This document shows positions 7,855 through 23,078 of a stretch of DNA of 23,921 nt, one piece after another. Positions within the stretch are counted from its first letter, which is position 1; every line of letters starts with the position of its first letter. This DNA is from a virus, in the IMG/VR virus record IMGVR_UViG_3300021091_000419, positions 1 through 23,921 of that record. One strand, written 5' to 3'. Position numbers and translations under genes: made by a program. The notes beneath the pieces are model-generated. The model saw only the letters and a list, made by a program, of their open reading frames with translations, did not search any database and had not been told where the DNA came from.

Positions 7855-10800
7855 ATGCCATACAATTATTTATATTTCAATGAAAATTCAGTTAACAATG
7901 GCATTGTAAGTTGTTCATATTTTCCAACTGATTTACAATCACTTTACGAACAATCCTTTTTGTCATCAACTAACTTTTTCGGTCAATCTGAGTCCGATTT
8001 AGTTGAAATGACAGTTTATGACACTTCAAATAATAGAATAGCTTATGATACAATAGTTCCTAAAGTTACTTTTAACGTATTAGAAGGAAACTATTTTGAT
8101 GTAAATTATCAATTACAAAGTTATAGATTTTTAGATCCGTCTACTAACTTTACAAAATTTAATAATTTTTTATTATTAAATCCACAGAATGATTTATCAA
8201 AACTGACAGTCAGTCCTGGCCAATACTATGTACTTTACAATCCTGTCAGAAACGTTGCGGGTAATTCTAAGTACAAGATGTTTATAAAAGAGATTTCTCC
8301 TTCAAGAAAAGAGTTAAGATTATCAATAGCATTTAATTCTACTCTCAACGATGAGAGTTTGTTTGAAGCTACAAAGATTTCTACTTTTGCAAATAAAAAA
8401 CTGATTACGTCTCACTTTATTGACAATTTAACTTTTGCATTAGATAATAACAGTATAAACAATAGTTTCGATAATTCTGCACAATTTCAAAATGTAGTTC
8501 AATATGCCTATCTCTTAGGATTAAAATCTGTACCAGAACTTGTTAAATTTATTAGTGATACATATTATGGATTCAATAGAGTAGTTACACTTGGCGAAGG
8601 TGTGAAAGAACTGAGAAAATTTGATGGTATAAAGCAACAGATCAAAAATTTTTGTTATCAATATTCAAATACTGAGTTTGCGAGCGACGAACTATTAGAA
8701 GTATTTAGATTAATTACAGCTAAAATTTCTCAAGAAAGAATTATTCAATATACTAGTATCAATAATGTAGATTTAGAAAGATTAACTGCATTTTTTATTG
8801 ATGTTATTTATAACAATTTATTACAAATAAATATCTCTTTTATTTTTACAAATTTTACAAATACGTACTACGGCTTATATAAAAATGCTTTAAATTTTGG
8901 AGATGGTAATTTAATTAAAATTTTAGATCATTCGTTTTATTTTAATAATCAAACAGGAAGAAATGAAATTCAAATTAAGTTAGATGAACCATTAAGCTTG
9001 GATTATAATTTAAAATCTTTTTGTTGGATATCTAATATTTCTCTTTCACCTTTATATTTTAAAGTCAATTTATTTACTAAACCGGTTTCTAAAAAAGTAT
9101 TTTTGAACGGAGTGAATTTTTCTGTAAATGTTAACAAAACGTCGGTTGAGACGGAAAAATTTACATCAAAAGAAAAAGAAACGTTGTTTGATGCAAAATC
9201 AAATTTGAAAATAAAGAATAACGATTTATTGATAGATTATAATAATTTTGAAAATTTTATAAATTATTCATCTGCTGAATTAAGAACAAAGATTGCTAAT
9301 TCAAAAATTAATAAATTTAATTCTTTAGAAGTTAAAAAATCATTAATCAAAACAAAGGCTAACGCTAGCGTTTTATCGGTTTCTGCTTCATATACAACAG
9401 ATTATGATTCGGTTGTAAATGAACAGATTTCGTTGTTAAATACGTTTGATGAATATGAATCACATTTGTTTTATAATCCTAATAATATAAACGACAGAAT
9501 TTTAAGCGGATCTGAGTATGACCGTGATAATTTAGATAGTTTAATAAATCAATTACCCGAATATATCCGTGATGATAGTGATTCAGAAGATTATATAAAA
9601 TTTACAGCAATGGTTGGTCATTTCTTTGATAATATTTTGGTATTTGTCAAAAAATTTCCTAAAAATTATCCAATAAATTACAACGATTTAAATGATTATC
9701 CTAAAAATTACATTGAAGAATTGTTAAATTCATTGAATTGGGATACAAACTTTAATACATTTGAAAACAGTTCTATTTCGAGATTATTATTTAATAATTC
9801 TCAGATCTCTAGTTCTTTATCTTCGTCATATTTCGACTATTGTAAATCAATTTTAAACAGAGTTACAAATAATTTGCCTTACATTTATAAAACAAAAGGC
9901 ACTCGTACTAGTTTAGAATTGATAAGAAATATATTTGGTATACCACCACAAATTATTAATATTGATGAATATGGTAGCGCAGACGTTCTTATAAATCGTA
10001 ATCAGTTTTACGATTTTAATGATATTAATTATCTAACAAAATATAACGGTCGAGGTGAATACATTAAATGTAGTTTTACGGGCAGTGATTTTAAATATGA
10101 TTTGATAAACTCTATAACAAGTAGTGTTTATAAGTTAACGCAATCTTATACACAAATATTTGATGGAATTTCATCAGTGGAATTGAGTTTTCGTTTGAAT
10201 TCAAATAAATACAGTTTTAACGATAAAATATTATTAGCTAGAAAAGTTAGAAATGGTAATTTTGATTGGGACATAAGCATAACAAAAACCCGTCAAAAAG
10301 ATTCTGGAATATTAAACTTTAATTTTTATCCGATTGAAATAGGTTATACCTCATCATTTAGTACCAATGAATTGCCAATGTTGAATGGCAATTTATTTAC
10401 TATGTTGTTGCAAAGAGATGTACCAAACGGTTTAAACTTAGATAATTTACCACAAGATGAAGTTGAAGTAAATAACACGTTGATAATTTCTTCATCATCA
10501 CCTTTAAGATACGTTCCATTTAACTATACTTTGGATGTTAAAAATTATGATGGTAGTAAATTACAGTTTAGTTCAAAGAACTCAAAAATAATCGATGCAA
10601 ATCAAAATCAATATTTTGGTAAAGGTGATTATTATTTTGGAAATTTTAGTTCTTCTAAACAAATTTATGGTAATATAGATAAAATAAAAATTTATAAGAA
10701 TTCAGTGTTGTCTGAAGAAGTTTTTAATGAACATTGTTACAATATTAATTCTATTTCCAACGGAGATACTAGTACTACGTATCCAAGTTTGTTATATTTA

Positions 10801-17853: not shown

Positions 17854-18360
17854 ATGGTTATATTAGGACTTGATACATCAACATCTGTTACCGGCTGGGC
17901 ATTTTCAAAAGACAATGTTATATTAGACGCGGGTTTTATCAACACAAAAAAGTTAGAAACAACGAAAGAAAAAACGTTTCACGTTATAAATGAGTTGGAA
18001 AAAAACAGTTTAATTAGACAAATCTCAAAAATTAACATTGAAGCTGCTTTAAGTGGTTTTGCGGGTGGTTTTACCAGTCAACAAACAATAATTACTTTAG
18101 CAAGACACAACGCTGTTTTTTCTTATATCATCGAAGAACATTTTAAAATCAAAGTAAACTTGTTGTCTGTAAATACTATGCGTAAACAGTTATTTGGTAA
18201 ATGTAGAATAAAAGGTATTAAATCAAAAGATTTTGTAAAACACCATCTTGAATTATTGTTACCCGAAGTAAAAAACTTCACGATAAAAAACAAAAATGGT
18301 AATTGGGATGAGAGAAATGGTGATATGTATGATGCAATCGTTACATCTCTTTTTAAATAA
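17854..18360 (+). CDS. RuvC-like Holliday junction resolvase
   Basis: The product has 168 residues, close to E. coli RuvC (173). The RNase-H-like fold is evident: the first strand VILGLDTSTSVTGWAF carries the first catalytic aspartate D7, E63 lies in INIEAALSGF, and the C-terminal helix GDMYDAIVTSLF supplies D157 and D160. These equal the D-E-D-D set of RuvC-type enzymes (E. coli D7, E66, D138, D141). Known role: resolving four-way DNA junctions left by recombination and replication before packaging. T4 itself uses the unrelated endonuclease VII (gp49), so this would be a functional replacement. The gene opens the DNA cassette, 21 bases upstream of the DUF2786 gene. Active-site residues look complete, so I expect an active enzyme. 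Confidence 0.93.
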   Translation: MVILGLDTSTSVTGWAFSKDNVILDAGFINTKKLETTKEKTFHVINELEKNSLIRQISKINIEAALSGFAGGFTSQQTIITLARHNAVFSYIIEEHFKIKVNLLSVNTMRKQLFGKCRIKGIKSKDFVKHHLELLLPEVKNFTIKNKNGNWDERNGDMYDAIVTSLFK

Positions 18361-18954: not shown

Positions 18955-18981
18955 ACATAGTTTCATCGTATCGTTATATTG

Positions 18982-19899
18982 ATGTCATTACAAACTGAAA
19001 AAGTAGTTTCAACGTTAAATAATTTATTGAATCAGACTGCTAGAATTAGAAAAGGTACCGATGCGGTATATCATTGTCCTGTTTGTAATCATTATAAACG
19101 TAAACTTGAAATCAATTTATTAACAGGTAAATATAATTGTTGGGTATGTGGATTTAGTGGTGTAACGTTCAAAAGTTTACTGAAAAAATTACAAGCCGGT
19201 AAAGAATATTATGAAATATTATGTAATATAAAGGTAAAAAACACATTTTCAAAAGAAGACAAAAAAATATTAACTTTACCAGAATCGTTCAAACCGTTGA
19301 TTAAACTCTCGAACGATATTGAATATAAAAATGCATTAAATTACTGTTTGTCGAGAGGAATAACAGGTTATGACATCGCTAGATATAATATAGGCTATTG
19401 TGATGACGGCGTTTTTAGAAACAGAGTGATAATTCCTTCATATGACGAAAATGGTTCATTGAATTTTTATTCAGGTAGAGATTATTATAACAGTAAAATG
19501 AAATATAGACTGTGTGACTCAACTAAAAATGTAATTGGATTTGAGTTACTTATTAACTTCAACGAGCCAATTACATTAGTTGAAGGACCATTTGATGCTT
19601 TTGCTGTAAAATATAATGTAATTCCATTATTTGGAAAATTATTATCAGAAAAGTTAAAGATTAAAATTTTGGAAACTAAACCACCACGTATAAATGTGTT
19701 GTTAGACAACGACGCAATTAAAGAAAGTATAAAGATGTGTGAGTTCTTATATAAGAATAGTATAAATACATATTTTATAAATTTAGACGGAAAAGATCCA
19801 AATGAAATTGGTCATGAAAAAACTTGGCAAAACATACATTCGGGTGTTAAGATAGATGAAAGTACGATTTTCAGACTTAAATTGAGTAATAAAATATGA
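18982..19899 (+). CDS. DNA primase, zinc-finger plus TOPRIM (DnaG/T4 gp61-type)
   Basis: I take the ATG at 18982 as the start; a TTG directly before it (18979) is less likely. The 305-residue product has an N-terminal CHC2-like zinc ribbon with C32, C35, C53 and C56 (CPVC...CWVC). The TOPRIM core follows: E201 in LVEGPFDAFAVKY, D242 and D244 in VLLDNDA, and KDPNE at 271-275. Length is near T4 gp61 (342). In the family it makes RNA primers for lagging-strand synthesis, normally with a separate replicative helicase, which is not in this window. There is no fused helicase domain. The last codon overlaps the next start (ATGA at 19896-19899), so it is translationally coupled to the Mre11-Rad50 fusion. 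All expected metal and TOPRIM residues are present. Confidence 0.92.
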   Translation: MSLQTEKVVSTLNNLLNQTARIRKGTDAVYHCPVCNHYKRKLEINLLTGKYNCWVCGFSGVTFKSLLKKLQAGKEYYEILCNIKVKNTFSKEDKKILTLPESFKPLIKLSNDIEYKNALNYCLSRGITGYDIARYNIGYCDDGVFRNRVIIPSYDENGSLNFYSGRDYYNSKMKYRLCDSTKNVIGFELLINFNEPITLVEGPFDAFAVKYNVIPLFGKLLSEKLKIKILETKPPRINVLLDNDAIKESIKMCEFLYKNSINTYFINLDGKDPNEIGHEKTWQNIHSGVKIDESTIFRLKLSNKI

Positions 19900-22800
19900 T
19901 TTTATTAAAAAATACAGAATCAAAAATTAATGCAATTGTACATATAGCGGATATTCATATTCGTCTAACCAAAAGACACGATGAATATATCACAGTATTT
20001 GAAAGATTTTATCAAGCTCTAGATAAAGTAAAAAAATTAGGCTCTGTTCTAGTTATCGCTGGTGACATTTTTCATAATAAAAGTGATTTGAGTCCTGAGT
20101 GTGTGAAAATTGGTAGTGATTTTCTTAAAAACTGTGCTGATAGAATACCTACCATATTAACCGCTGGAAACCACGATGCTACGCTTGCGAATAAATCTCG
20201 TTTAGATTGTTTGACTCCTATTGTTGATGCTCTACAACATAATAATTTGTATTATCTGAAAGCCACAGATGTATATCGGTATGAAAATATACTATTTAAC
20301 AATTTTAGTGTATTTGATGATTCCGAAAAATATATCATGTATAAAGATATATCGTCTAAATACAAAGTTGAAACCGATCATCACATTGCATTATTTCATG
20401 GTCCGGTCAATAATGCTATTACAGATATTGGATATAAGGTAAGTAATCGTGCTATTACAAACGAATTGTTCGACGGTCATCACATTTCAATGTTAGGTGA
20501 CATTCATAAACATCAAATTCTACAAGAATATGATGAAACTGATGAAAAGCCTGTTATTGTTTATGCTGGTTCTATGATTCAACAAAATCACGGCGAAGAA
20601 CTTAAAGGTCACGGATTTTTGATGTGGGATTTAAAACGTAGAGTATTTAAACATTATGAATTACAAAATGAATATGGATACTTCACATTAGAAATCAACA
20701 AAGGTAAATTAGTTACTGATATTACGGAAATGCCGAAAAAGGTTCGTATACGAACCAAATGTTTTGAATCTATTCCATCACAAGTAAAAGAGGTGATGAA
20801 TGATATCAAAAACAAATGTAAAATTCTTGAATCAACCTTTATTAGGGTAGATGAAGCCGAAGTTGATCTCACTCTTAAGAATGGTCAAATTTTTGATATT
20901 CATAATATTTTAGATGTAGATTATCAGAACAAACTAATTGAAGATAACTTACTTGCAAAAAATATAGACAACAGTCTTATCGAAAAAGTTAAAGAACTAA
21001 ATAAGTCAATTAACAAGGAAATTTCCAAAGACAAATCTCCGAAAAATATTCGTTGGAAACCAAAGACTTTTGAGTTTGATAATATGTTTAGTTATGGTGA
21101 GAATAATTATATTGATTTTACCAAATTAAAAGGTACTATTGGTTTATTTGCTCCGAATGCTAGTGGTAAATCAAGTATAATGGATGCACTGGCTTTTTGT
21201 GTATTTGATAAATTTAGTAAAGGATATAAAGCTGTACACGTATTGAATACTCAGAAAATGAGTTTCAAATGTAAGTTTAATTTTGAAGTAAACGGCGTAG
21301 ATTACTTTATTGAACGAGAAGGCAAATCTGATAAAAAGGGTAATATTAAAGTTGAAGTTAAATTTTACAAGTTAGAAAATGATAAAGAAGTACCATTGAA
21401 TGGCGAAGCACGTAGAAGTACCAATGACATTATTAGAGATTATGTTGGTACATACGATGACTTTATTCTAACGGTATTAAGCATTCAAAACAGTAAAGCG
21501 AGTTCATTTATTGATTTGGGACAAACTGAACGAAAGGATTTGTTGTGTCAGTTTATGGGATTAACTGTATTTGATCAATTATATACCCTCGCAAATGACA
21601 GATTTAAAGAAACTAACACTTTGTTAAAAAATGTAAGTAAGGATCAACTATTATCAGAATTAACTCAGATTTCTTCGAGTATTGAATTAAATAATAAAAA
21701 TATTATCAAATACAATGATGAAATAAAACAGTTAGAGTCTAAAAAAGAAGAACAAAACAATAAATTATTGGAATTATCAAATAATGTAATTAAAACTACA
21801 TCTTTCGATTTTAATATTACCGAATTAGAATCCGAAAAAACTGACTTGGAATCGAAAATTTCAAAATTTCAAGGTGATATTATTGAAAAAAAGAACAAAT
21901 TATCTATAGTTGAATCAGATCTGTACAACTTATCCTCTTCTTTAAAAAGTTGTGAAAATATTAACAATGATTATGAACAATATAAATTAAAAAAAGAAGA
22001 GGAGTCTAAAAAGAGTTCTGAAATCGAAAAATTAAAAGTAATTGTCAAAAATAAAATTGATAAACTTAAAAAATTAGAAGAACACAAATATGATCCAAAT
22101 TGTATATATTGCGTAAATAATGTTTTTGTAAAAGATGCAATTAAAACTAAAGAAGAACTTGAACTTGACAAAAATAAAGGTAAAATATTAGTTGATGAAT
22201 TTAATGTGATTAAATCTATATTGGATTCTTTTGGTAATATCGAATTACGTTATAAAGAATATCAACACACTACTGCTGAAAAGGTCAGATTAGATAAAAG
22301 CAAGGAAATATTGTCTACTGCAATATTGAAAGACGAAAATTATATAATAACATTACAAAACAAATTAAAAGAAACCAATCAAAAGATTGAAACATTTTAC
22401 AAAAATAAAGATATTATTGAAAATAACTTAAAATTGATAATAGAAATAAACAGTGTAAAAACTGAAGTCAGAAAATATGAATTAGATATTAAAAATATAA
22501 ACAGTAGTATTTTTACAGCATCCACAGAAAAAGGAAGAGTTGAATTACAATATAAAAACACTACCGATCAATTAAACAAAGTAAAGGAACTTGAAGAATC
22601 ATATGAAGCTTATAAGTTATATTCTAATATTATAAGTCGTGATGGCATTCCTTACGAAATCATTACCAAAACTCTGCCTGAAATAGAAAAGGAAATAAAT
22701 AATATTCTTCATCAATTAGTAGAATTTAATGTTTCGATGCAAACTGACGGTAAAAACATCATGACTAATATTGTTTATGATGATAAACAATGGCCACTCG

Positions 22801-23078
22801 AAATGGCTAGTGGTATGGAAAAATTTGTCAGTGGATTGGCGATTCGTGTTGCTTTAATTAATATTAGTAACTTACCACGACCAAATATTATTTGTATCGA
22901 TGAAGGTTTTGGTTGCGCGGATAGTGACCATTTAGGACAAATGGGCGCTTTGTTTAATTATTTAAAACATCAATTCGATTTTATCTGGATTATCAGTCAT
23001 TTAGACCAAATGAAAGACATGGTAGATAGTCAAATTGAAATTAAAAAAGAAAATGGATTTAGTAAAGTAAATTTTTAA
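19896..23078 (+). CDS. Fused Mre11/SbcD nuclease and Rad50/SbcC ATPase (gp47-gp46 in one chain)
   Basis: One 1060-residue frame contains both subunits. The Mre11 part shows all phosphoesterase motifs: D19 and H21 (HIADIHI), D57 and H60 (AGDIFHNK), N92-H93-D94 (TAGNHD), H168 (FHGPVNN), and H204/H206 (LGDIHKH). A helical linker at about 345-380 is where Mre11 normally binds Rad50. The Rad50 part starts near 386 and has Walker A at 419-427 (APNASGKSS, with Ala for the first Gly). It continues with a Q-loop (VLSIQNSKASSFIDL), coiled-coil arms around a zinc hook C736-x-x-C739, a signature segment (MASGMEKFVSGLAIRVAL), Walker B at about 998-1003 (IICIDE) and the H-loop H1035. Known role in T4: gp46/gp47 resect DNA ends for recombination-dependent replication. 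T4 uses two genes (560 and 339 residues). No stop or frameshift separates the halves. Confidence 0.95.
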   Translation: MILLKNTESKINAIVHIADIHIRLTKRHDEYITVFERFYQALDKVKKLGSVLVIAGDIFHNKSDLSPECVKIGSDFLKNCADRIPTILTAGNHDATLANKSRLDCLTPIVDALQHNNLYYLKATDVYRYENILFNNFSVFDDSEKYIMYKDISSKYKVETDHHIALFHGPVNNAITDIGYKVSNRAITNELFDGHHISMLGDIHKHQILQEYDETDEKPVIVYAGSMIQQNHGEELKGHGFLMWDLKRRVFKHYELQNEYGYFTLEINKGKLVTDITEMPKKVRIRTKCFESIPSQVKEVMNDIKNKCKILESTFIRVDEAEVDLTLKNGQIFDIHNILDVDYQNKLIEDNLLAKNIDNSLIEKVKELNKSINKEISKDKSPKNIRWKPKTFEFDNMFSYGENNYIDFTKLKGTIGLFAPNASGKSSIMDALAFCVFDKFSKGYKAVHVLNTQKMSFKCKFNFEVNGVDYFIEREGKSDKKGNIKVEVKFYKLENDKEVPLNGEARRSTNDIIRDYVGTYDDFILTVLSIQNSKASSFIDLGQTERKDLLCQFMGLTVFDQLYTLANDRFKETNTLLKNVSKDQLLSELTQISSSIELNNKNIIKYNDEIKQLESKKEEQNNKLLELSNNVIKTTSFDFNITELESEKTDLESKISKFQGDIIEKKNKLSIVESDLYNLSSSLKSCENINNDYEQYKLKKEEESKKSSEIEKLKVIVKNKIDKLKKLEEHKYDPNCIYCVNNVFVKDAIKTKEELELDKNKGKILVDEFNVIKSILDSFGNIELRYKEYQHTTAEKVRLDKSKEILSTAILKDENYIITLQNKLKETNQKIETFYKNKDIIENNLKLIIEINSVKTEVRKYELDIKNINSSIFTASTEKGRVELQYKNTTDQLNKVKELEESYEAYKLYSNIISRDGIPYEIITKTLPEIEKEINNILHQLVEFNVSMQTDGKNIMTNIVYDDKQWPLEMASGMEKFVSGLAIRVALINISNLPRPNIICIDEGFGCADSDHLGQMGALFNYLKHQFDFIWIISHLDQMKDMVDSQIEIKKENGFSKVNF

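Follow-up and report, generated by a model that had tools for sequence, protein, structure and literature searches.

We analyzed a window of 23,921 nucleotides that makes up positions 1 to 23,921 of a viral record (IMG/VR IMGVR_UViG_3300021091_000419) and is free of N. Its plus strand carries, at positions 19896-23078, a fused Mre11-Rad50 (SbcD-SbcC, hereafter MR) gene that forms one open frame of 1060 amino acids. The ATG of this gene overlaps by 4 bases (ATGA) the stop codon of a DnaG-type primase gene (18979..19899, +; PHROG 47, E 1.3e-39; TIGR01391 dnaG), and a RuvC-like Holliday-junction resolvase gene lies further upstream (17854..18360, +; PHROG 827 and 159). No Rfam match or tRNA was found in the window.

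The 1060-aa protein is a single-chain Mre11-Rad50, with both halves of this universal enzyme of DNA-break processing in one polypeptide. Pfam places Metallophos at residues 14-204 (E 2.6e-10) and AAA_23 at residues 395-623 (E 6e-10), both passing the curated cut-off, so that Metallophos is followed by the Rad50 ATPase domain within one unbroken frame, as in the fused proteins of the Mimivirus R555 type. The PHROGs matches run in the same order, from an SbcD-like to an SbcC-like family, NCBIfam yields clear though sub-threshold scores for sbcd and sbcc, and the sequences of solved structures that match the protein are those of Rad50, SbcC and Mre11. The single uninterrupted Mre11-Rad50 frame proposed by the initial annotation of this DNA is thus borne out by the open reading frame itself, by Pfam for both domains and by the relatives, in most of which the frame is also open. 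The two separate genes that define the T4 gp46/gp47 complex are replaced here by a single one.

To describe the layout of the protein we used an AlphaFold2 (AF2) single-chain model built on a 29-sequence alignment (mean pLDDT 79.6, pTM 0.45, the low pTM being unsurprising given the long coiled coil). The Mre11/SbcD phosphoesterase core and capping domain with motifs I-V occupy residues 12-318 (19929..20849, +), as indicated by Pfam Metallophos, AF2 and motif conservation. They are followed at residues 341-373 (20916..21014, +) by a helix-loop-helix (HLH), modelled as helices 341-354 and 359-373, which is likely the Rad50-binding domain of Mre11 judging from the model and from the published fusions (PMC3175470). 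A linker of 12 residues (374-385; 21015..21050, +), seen in AF2 and in an alignment of 77 relatives where its length is 11-13 residues, joins the Mre11 part to the Rad50 part.

The Rad50/SbcC N-lobe with Walker A and Q-loop corresponds to residues 386-556 (21051..21563, +), supported by AAA_23 and by structural similarity to E. coli SbcC (7yzo). The C-lobe with SGMEK, Walker B IDEG, D-loop and H-loop corresponds to residues 914-1060 (22635..23075, +), supported by structure matches and conservation. Between the lobes, AF2 helices form two antiparallel coiled-coil arms (557-729 and 746-913; 21564..22634, +) around a zinc hook, C736/C739, whose CxxC is present in 77/77 relatives. The arms were expected to be shorter than those of SbcC, which is correct in comparison with E. 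coli SbcC, but at about 173 and 168 residues they exceed the length of about 160 residues each first given. The Rad50 half of the model (residues 387-1060) superimposes on 7yzo with Z 30.4 and an rmsd of 3.2 over 347 residues, and the Mre11 half (residues 12-317) on T. maritima Mre11 (2q8u) with Z 23.2 and an rmsd of 6.2 over 259.

All five metal-binding phosphoesterase motifs of Mre11/SbcD are present (D19/H21, D57/H60, N92/H93/D94, H168 and D202/H204), as initially claimed, with one departure: motif V reads GDIH (201-204) instead of the usual GHxH, so the usual metal-ligand histidine is replaced by aspartate. Similarly, the full Rad50 set is found as claimed, namely Walker A APNASGKSS (419-427), Q531 of the Q-loop, the coiled coil with C736-x-x-C739 between the lobes, the signature SGMEK (972-976), Walker B IDEG (1001-1004), D1009 and H1035, but two of these motifs are degenerate while keeping their key residues. 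Of GxxGxGKS, Walker A retains GKS and lacks both earlier glycines; the ABC signature has SGME where SGGE would be canonical.

Conservation was counted in 77 non-redundant relatives clustered at 90% identity. D19, D57, H60, N92, H93, H168, D202 and H204 on the Mre11 side and K425, S426, Q531, C736, C739, G973, E975, D1002, E1003, D1009 and H1035 on the Rad50 side are invariant in 77/77; the exceptions are H21, which is glutamine in 8/77, and S972, which is glycine in 1/77. GDIH itself is found in all 77, is general in the clade of the window protein and recurs in the majority of the remaining fused phage proteins, while GHxH is the usual form in most split phage enzymes and in E. coli. It is nevertheless ruled out as a hallmark of fusion, the fused protein of Sphingomonas phage PAU having GHIH and the split enzyme of Vibrio phage D239 having GDLH.

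The change in motif V raises the question of whether the nuclease site has been lost or altered, leaving either an ATPase that mainly tethers ends or a nuclease that prefers a different metal. The aspartate found throughout the 77 relatives and shared with Mimivirus R555, the glutamine that replaces the motif I histidine in some relatives and the prevalence of GHxH elsewhere are all compatible with this idea. We nonetheless consider it unlikely: aspartate is able to bind metal, so that the motif V residue could still be a ligand, nearly all remaining ligands are invariant, the PAU and D239 enzymes uncouple the change from the fusion, and a site this strongly conserved speaks for catalysis. A broader proposal is that in the large fused clade of phages and giant viruses the active site has been rebuilt (GDIH in motif V, a degenerate Walker A and the SGME signature), that its metal use or gating is unlike that of all characterized MR enzymes, and that these changes and the fixed linker jointly define a mechanistically distinct sub-type; we consider this rather improbable.

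Another explanation for the fusion is an assembly error or missed stop that joins two adjacent genes, given that T4, Klebsiella phage Muenster, Xanthomonas phage XaC1 and E. coli have two separate genes near each other. To address this question, we scanned IMG/VR with the protein, which gave 79 loci, and with an alignment, which gave at least 585 matching stretches, the best 80 of which added loci. The whole fusion lies in one open frame in 138 of the 147 related loci, drawn from many metagenomes (this count includes L119, where a stop is located ahead of the start codon). Five loci end at a contig edge (L056, L066, L073, L075 and L099), the other four are broken elsewhere (L028, L122, L065 and L082; in L122 the break is internal to the coiled coil), and none of the 147 is broken at the Mre11-Rad50 junction. 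The frame is also uninterrupted in the isolate Microcystis phage Mel-JY01. With the same unbroken frame in independent contigs, a linker held at 11-13 residues and isolate phages carrying the fusion, an assembly artefact was rejected; it has next to no probability, and the error at the junction against which the initial annotation had cautioned is excluded in practice.

Several of these loci have features of their own. The fused gene of L028 is complete apart from a lone in-frame stop (8821-8823) at roughly residue 941, which may reflect a pseudogene, a sequencing error or another cause. On a 303-kb contig, the fused gene of L029 (5998-10161) contains, directly after GNHD of Mre11 motif III, an intein of about 320 aa that is in frame and keeps the fused frame open. 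This intein starts CYSEDHELLTQSGW, has a LAGLIDADG-like DGYLHGDG motif, ends with ICGN ahead of a cysteine and matches Pfam Intein_splicing just below the cut-off (E 1.5e-7). Two distant relatives, L082 (5953-10175; LR756508, a 484-kb phage) and L065 (5986-9335), have the fused gene split inside Mre11 at an identical point just past motif V (window residues 207/219), with an HNH-like homing endonuclease ORF (PHROG 1271) between the halves in L082 and only a short spacer in L065. An extra tail and a separate stop or possible start are present on every half, which suggests genes-in-pieces rather than a spliced intron; a group I intron was rejected in both loci since no Rfam family reached threshold.

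The fused enzyme is widespread in aquatic phages and in giant viruses. In the annotated phage collection the fused relatives are those of Mel-JY01 (38% identity), the uncultured large phages LR756508 and LR756501/3, Tenacibaculum phages pT24, PTm1 and PTm5, Chryseobacterium phages MA9V-1 and MA9V-2 and Sphingomonas phage PAU; two-gene MR is found in Muenster, XaC1, Bacillus phage Troll, Vibrio phage D239 and T4. Among the predicted viral structures of BFVD, full-length proteins of giant viruses (969-1417 residues) with the same domain order rank highest, led by a Tupanvirus protein (27% identity over 1316 alignment columns), with the Tenacibaculum phage fused proteins also among the nearest. 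The nearest full-length relatives are therefore fused giant-virus and phage proteins, as for an R555-type enzyme. A search of PLSDB with this query gave no full-length fused match on plasmids.

A tree built on columns from the head and the nuclease, which contained no giant-virus sequence, has a branch (SH-aLRT 97) that separates 27 fused rows from 7 split rows. Some of the split rows (E. coli, Vibrio and Troll) are long branches, so the tree gives a lead towards a single origin of the fusions in phages and not a proof.

Such a fusion was first described in 2011, when Yoshida, Claverie and Ogata reported Mimivirus R555 as an Mre11-Rad50 fusion along with twelve further fusions from bacteria, plasmids, eukaryotes and Bacillus phage 0305phi8-36 (PMC3175470). 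In R555, Asp242 replaces His206 (P. furiosus numbering), and the HLH region is kept in most fusions. The fusion was argued to be compatible with the geometry of the T. maritima complex, where about 28 A separate the Mre11 C-terminus from the Rad50 N-terminus, a gap that 9-12 residues would bridge. In aquatic samples, the viral size fractions were enriched in R555 homologues, some of which lay near phage primase genes, and these homologues were inferred to be abundant in aquatic viruses including phages. The fused sequences did not form one group once cellular and split phage ones were included (PMC3175470).

The window protein fits each point of the 2011 description. It shares with R555 and its relatives the Mre11-HLH-linker-Rad50 order in one chain, with the HLH at 341-373 and a 12-residue linker where about 9-12 residues are expected (PMC3175470), the aspartate for the first histidine of motif V, a fused gene that is the sole MR copy, as is probably the case here, and phage relatives near primase genes in aquatic samples. 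At 1351 aa, R555 itself is about 290 residues longer than the window protein, which comes from a tailed phage. Taken together, the locus as a whole very probably encodes an R555-type fused MR enzyme of phage origin, which is probably the only MR enzyme of its virus.

The closest cultured counterpart, the Mel-JY01 protein WWT39521.1 (annotated as 'AAA domain containing protein'), aligns to the window protein with 99% coverage and 38% identity and has the same length at 1066 aa. Its gene likewise has a primase upstream, but in this cultured phage the primase and the fusion are separated by one small gene. The Tenacibaculum, Chryseobacterium and PAU phages have the same fused order in a single gene but differ in size (about 1300 aa), identity (only about 23%) and gene neighbourhood, and PAU further differs by the GHIH in motif V.

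T4 gp47/gp46 and the gp47 and gp46 of the jumbo phages Muenster and XaC1 represent the same two enzymes with the same likely phage role, but are encoded by two genes, have GHFH in motif V and a signature that ends in GE, the canonical form among ABC ATPases. The Muenster pair (346 + 714 = 1060 aa) has a total size like that of the window protein, while T4 gp46, at 560 aa, is smaller than its Rad50 half and has shorter arms. E. coli SbcCD has the same folds, and its SbcC shares Walker B DEGFG, but it consists of two proteins with much longer coiled coils (SbcC 1048 aa) and about 22% identity in the head.

A fused chain fixes the Mre11:Rad50 stoichiometry at 1:1, which follows from the one-gene fusion as initially proposed. 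Judging from the fold, two identical chains would come together as the usual M2R2 assembly, joined at the Mre11 dimer interface, at the ATP-engaged Rad50 heads and at the zinc hook. The HLH may dock on the Rad50 coiled coil, and the tether may constrain how the nuclease moves, as initially proposed. The ATP-gated heads would bind DNA ends and pass them to the di-metal nuclease site, which, by homology to T4 gp46/gp47 and SbcCD, may act as an endonuclease and a processive 3'-5' exonuclease.

The most likely role of the enzyme, by analogy with T4, is the processing of DNA ends for recombination-dependent replication and repair. According to the T4 record, both recombination and the breakdown of host DNA need gp46/gp47. 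Working alongside the neighbouring primase and the RuvC-like resolvase, the fused enzyme most likely prepares ends, and it may also help degrade host DNA. All 125 relatives whose flanks are long enough have the primase immediately upstream, and 69 of these 125 also have a RuvC-like gene close by. In seven related records (the 190-kb isolate Mel-JY01 and contigs of 105-484 kb), each has one AAA_23 match, on the fused gene, with no second, Rad50-like one. The fused protein is probably the only gp46/gp47 equivalent of this phage, although the window covers just a 24-kb fragment.

Alternatively, the fusion may serve anti-defence or superinfection exclusion rather than DNA replication and recombination, as SMC-like defence complexes acting on foreign DNA (JetABCD, Lamassu) are among the structural matches. 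These matches cover the shared SMC/Rad50 head fold only, and a primase adjoining in every checked relative together with a sole AAA_23 match in the searched records is what is expected of a core replication gene; we regard a defence-related function as highly unlikely.

The initial annotation regarded the architecture as unfamiliar and knew of no characterized enzyme of this kind. The architecture was published in 2011 (PMC3175470), and our searches show it to be widespread in phages and giant viruses. For biochemistry the statement holds: we found no report on a natural fused MR and no biochemically characterized homologue in the open-access literature searched, although absence there is not proof. 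The fusion is real, but because it was already described and occurs commonly among aquatic phages, the find is for the most part ordinary and adds little as a discovery. Its practical value lies elsewhere. Two-chain MR complexes are harder to prepare than a single chain, and a compact 1060-residue protein with short arms and a relative in a cultured phage (Mel-JY01) would be handy for structural study of Mre11/Rad50 movement; the invariant motif V aspartate offers a simple testable question.

The surroundings of the replication genes are also of note. Within 2676-23919 of the window, the RuvC-like, primase and fused MR genes have baseplate/tail structural genes on one side and, on the other, a gene from 23182 whose start resembles tail sheath by eye, with no family match. 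Two structural-region genes and the primase precede the MR gene in the same order in Mel-JY01. At 260-2632 the window encodes a protein resembling a tail tape measure; it contains a stretch of glycine-zipper repeats in which GC reaches ~0.45 with strong G skew, compared to ~0.28 across most of the window.
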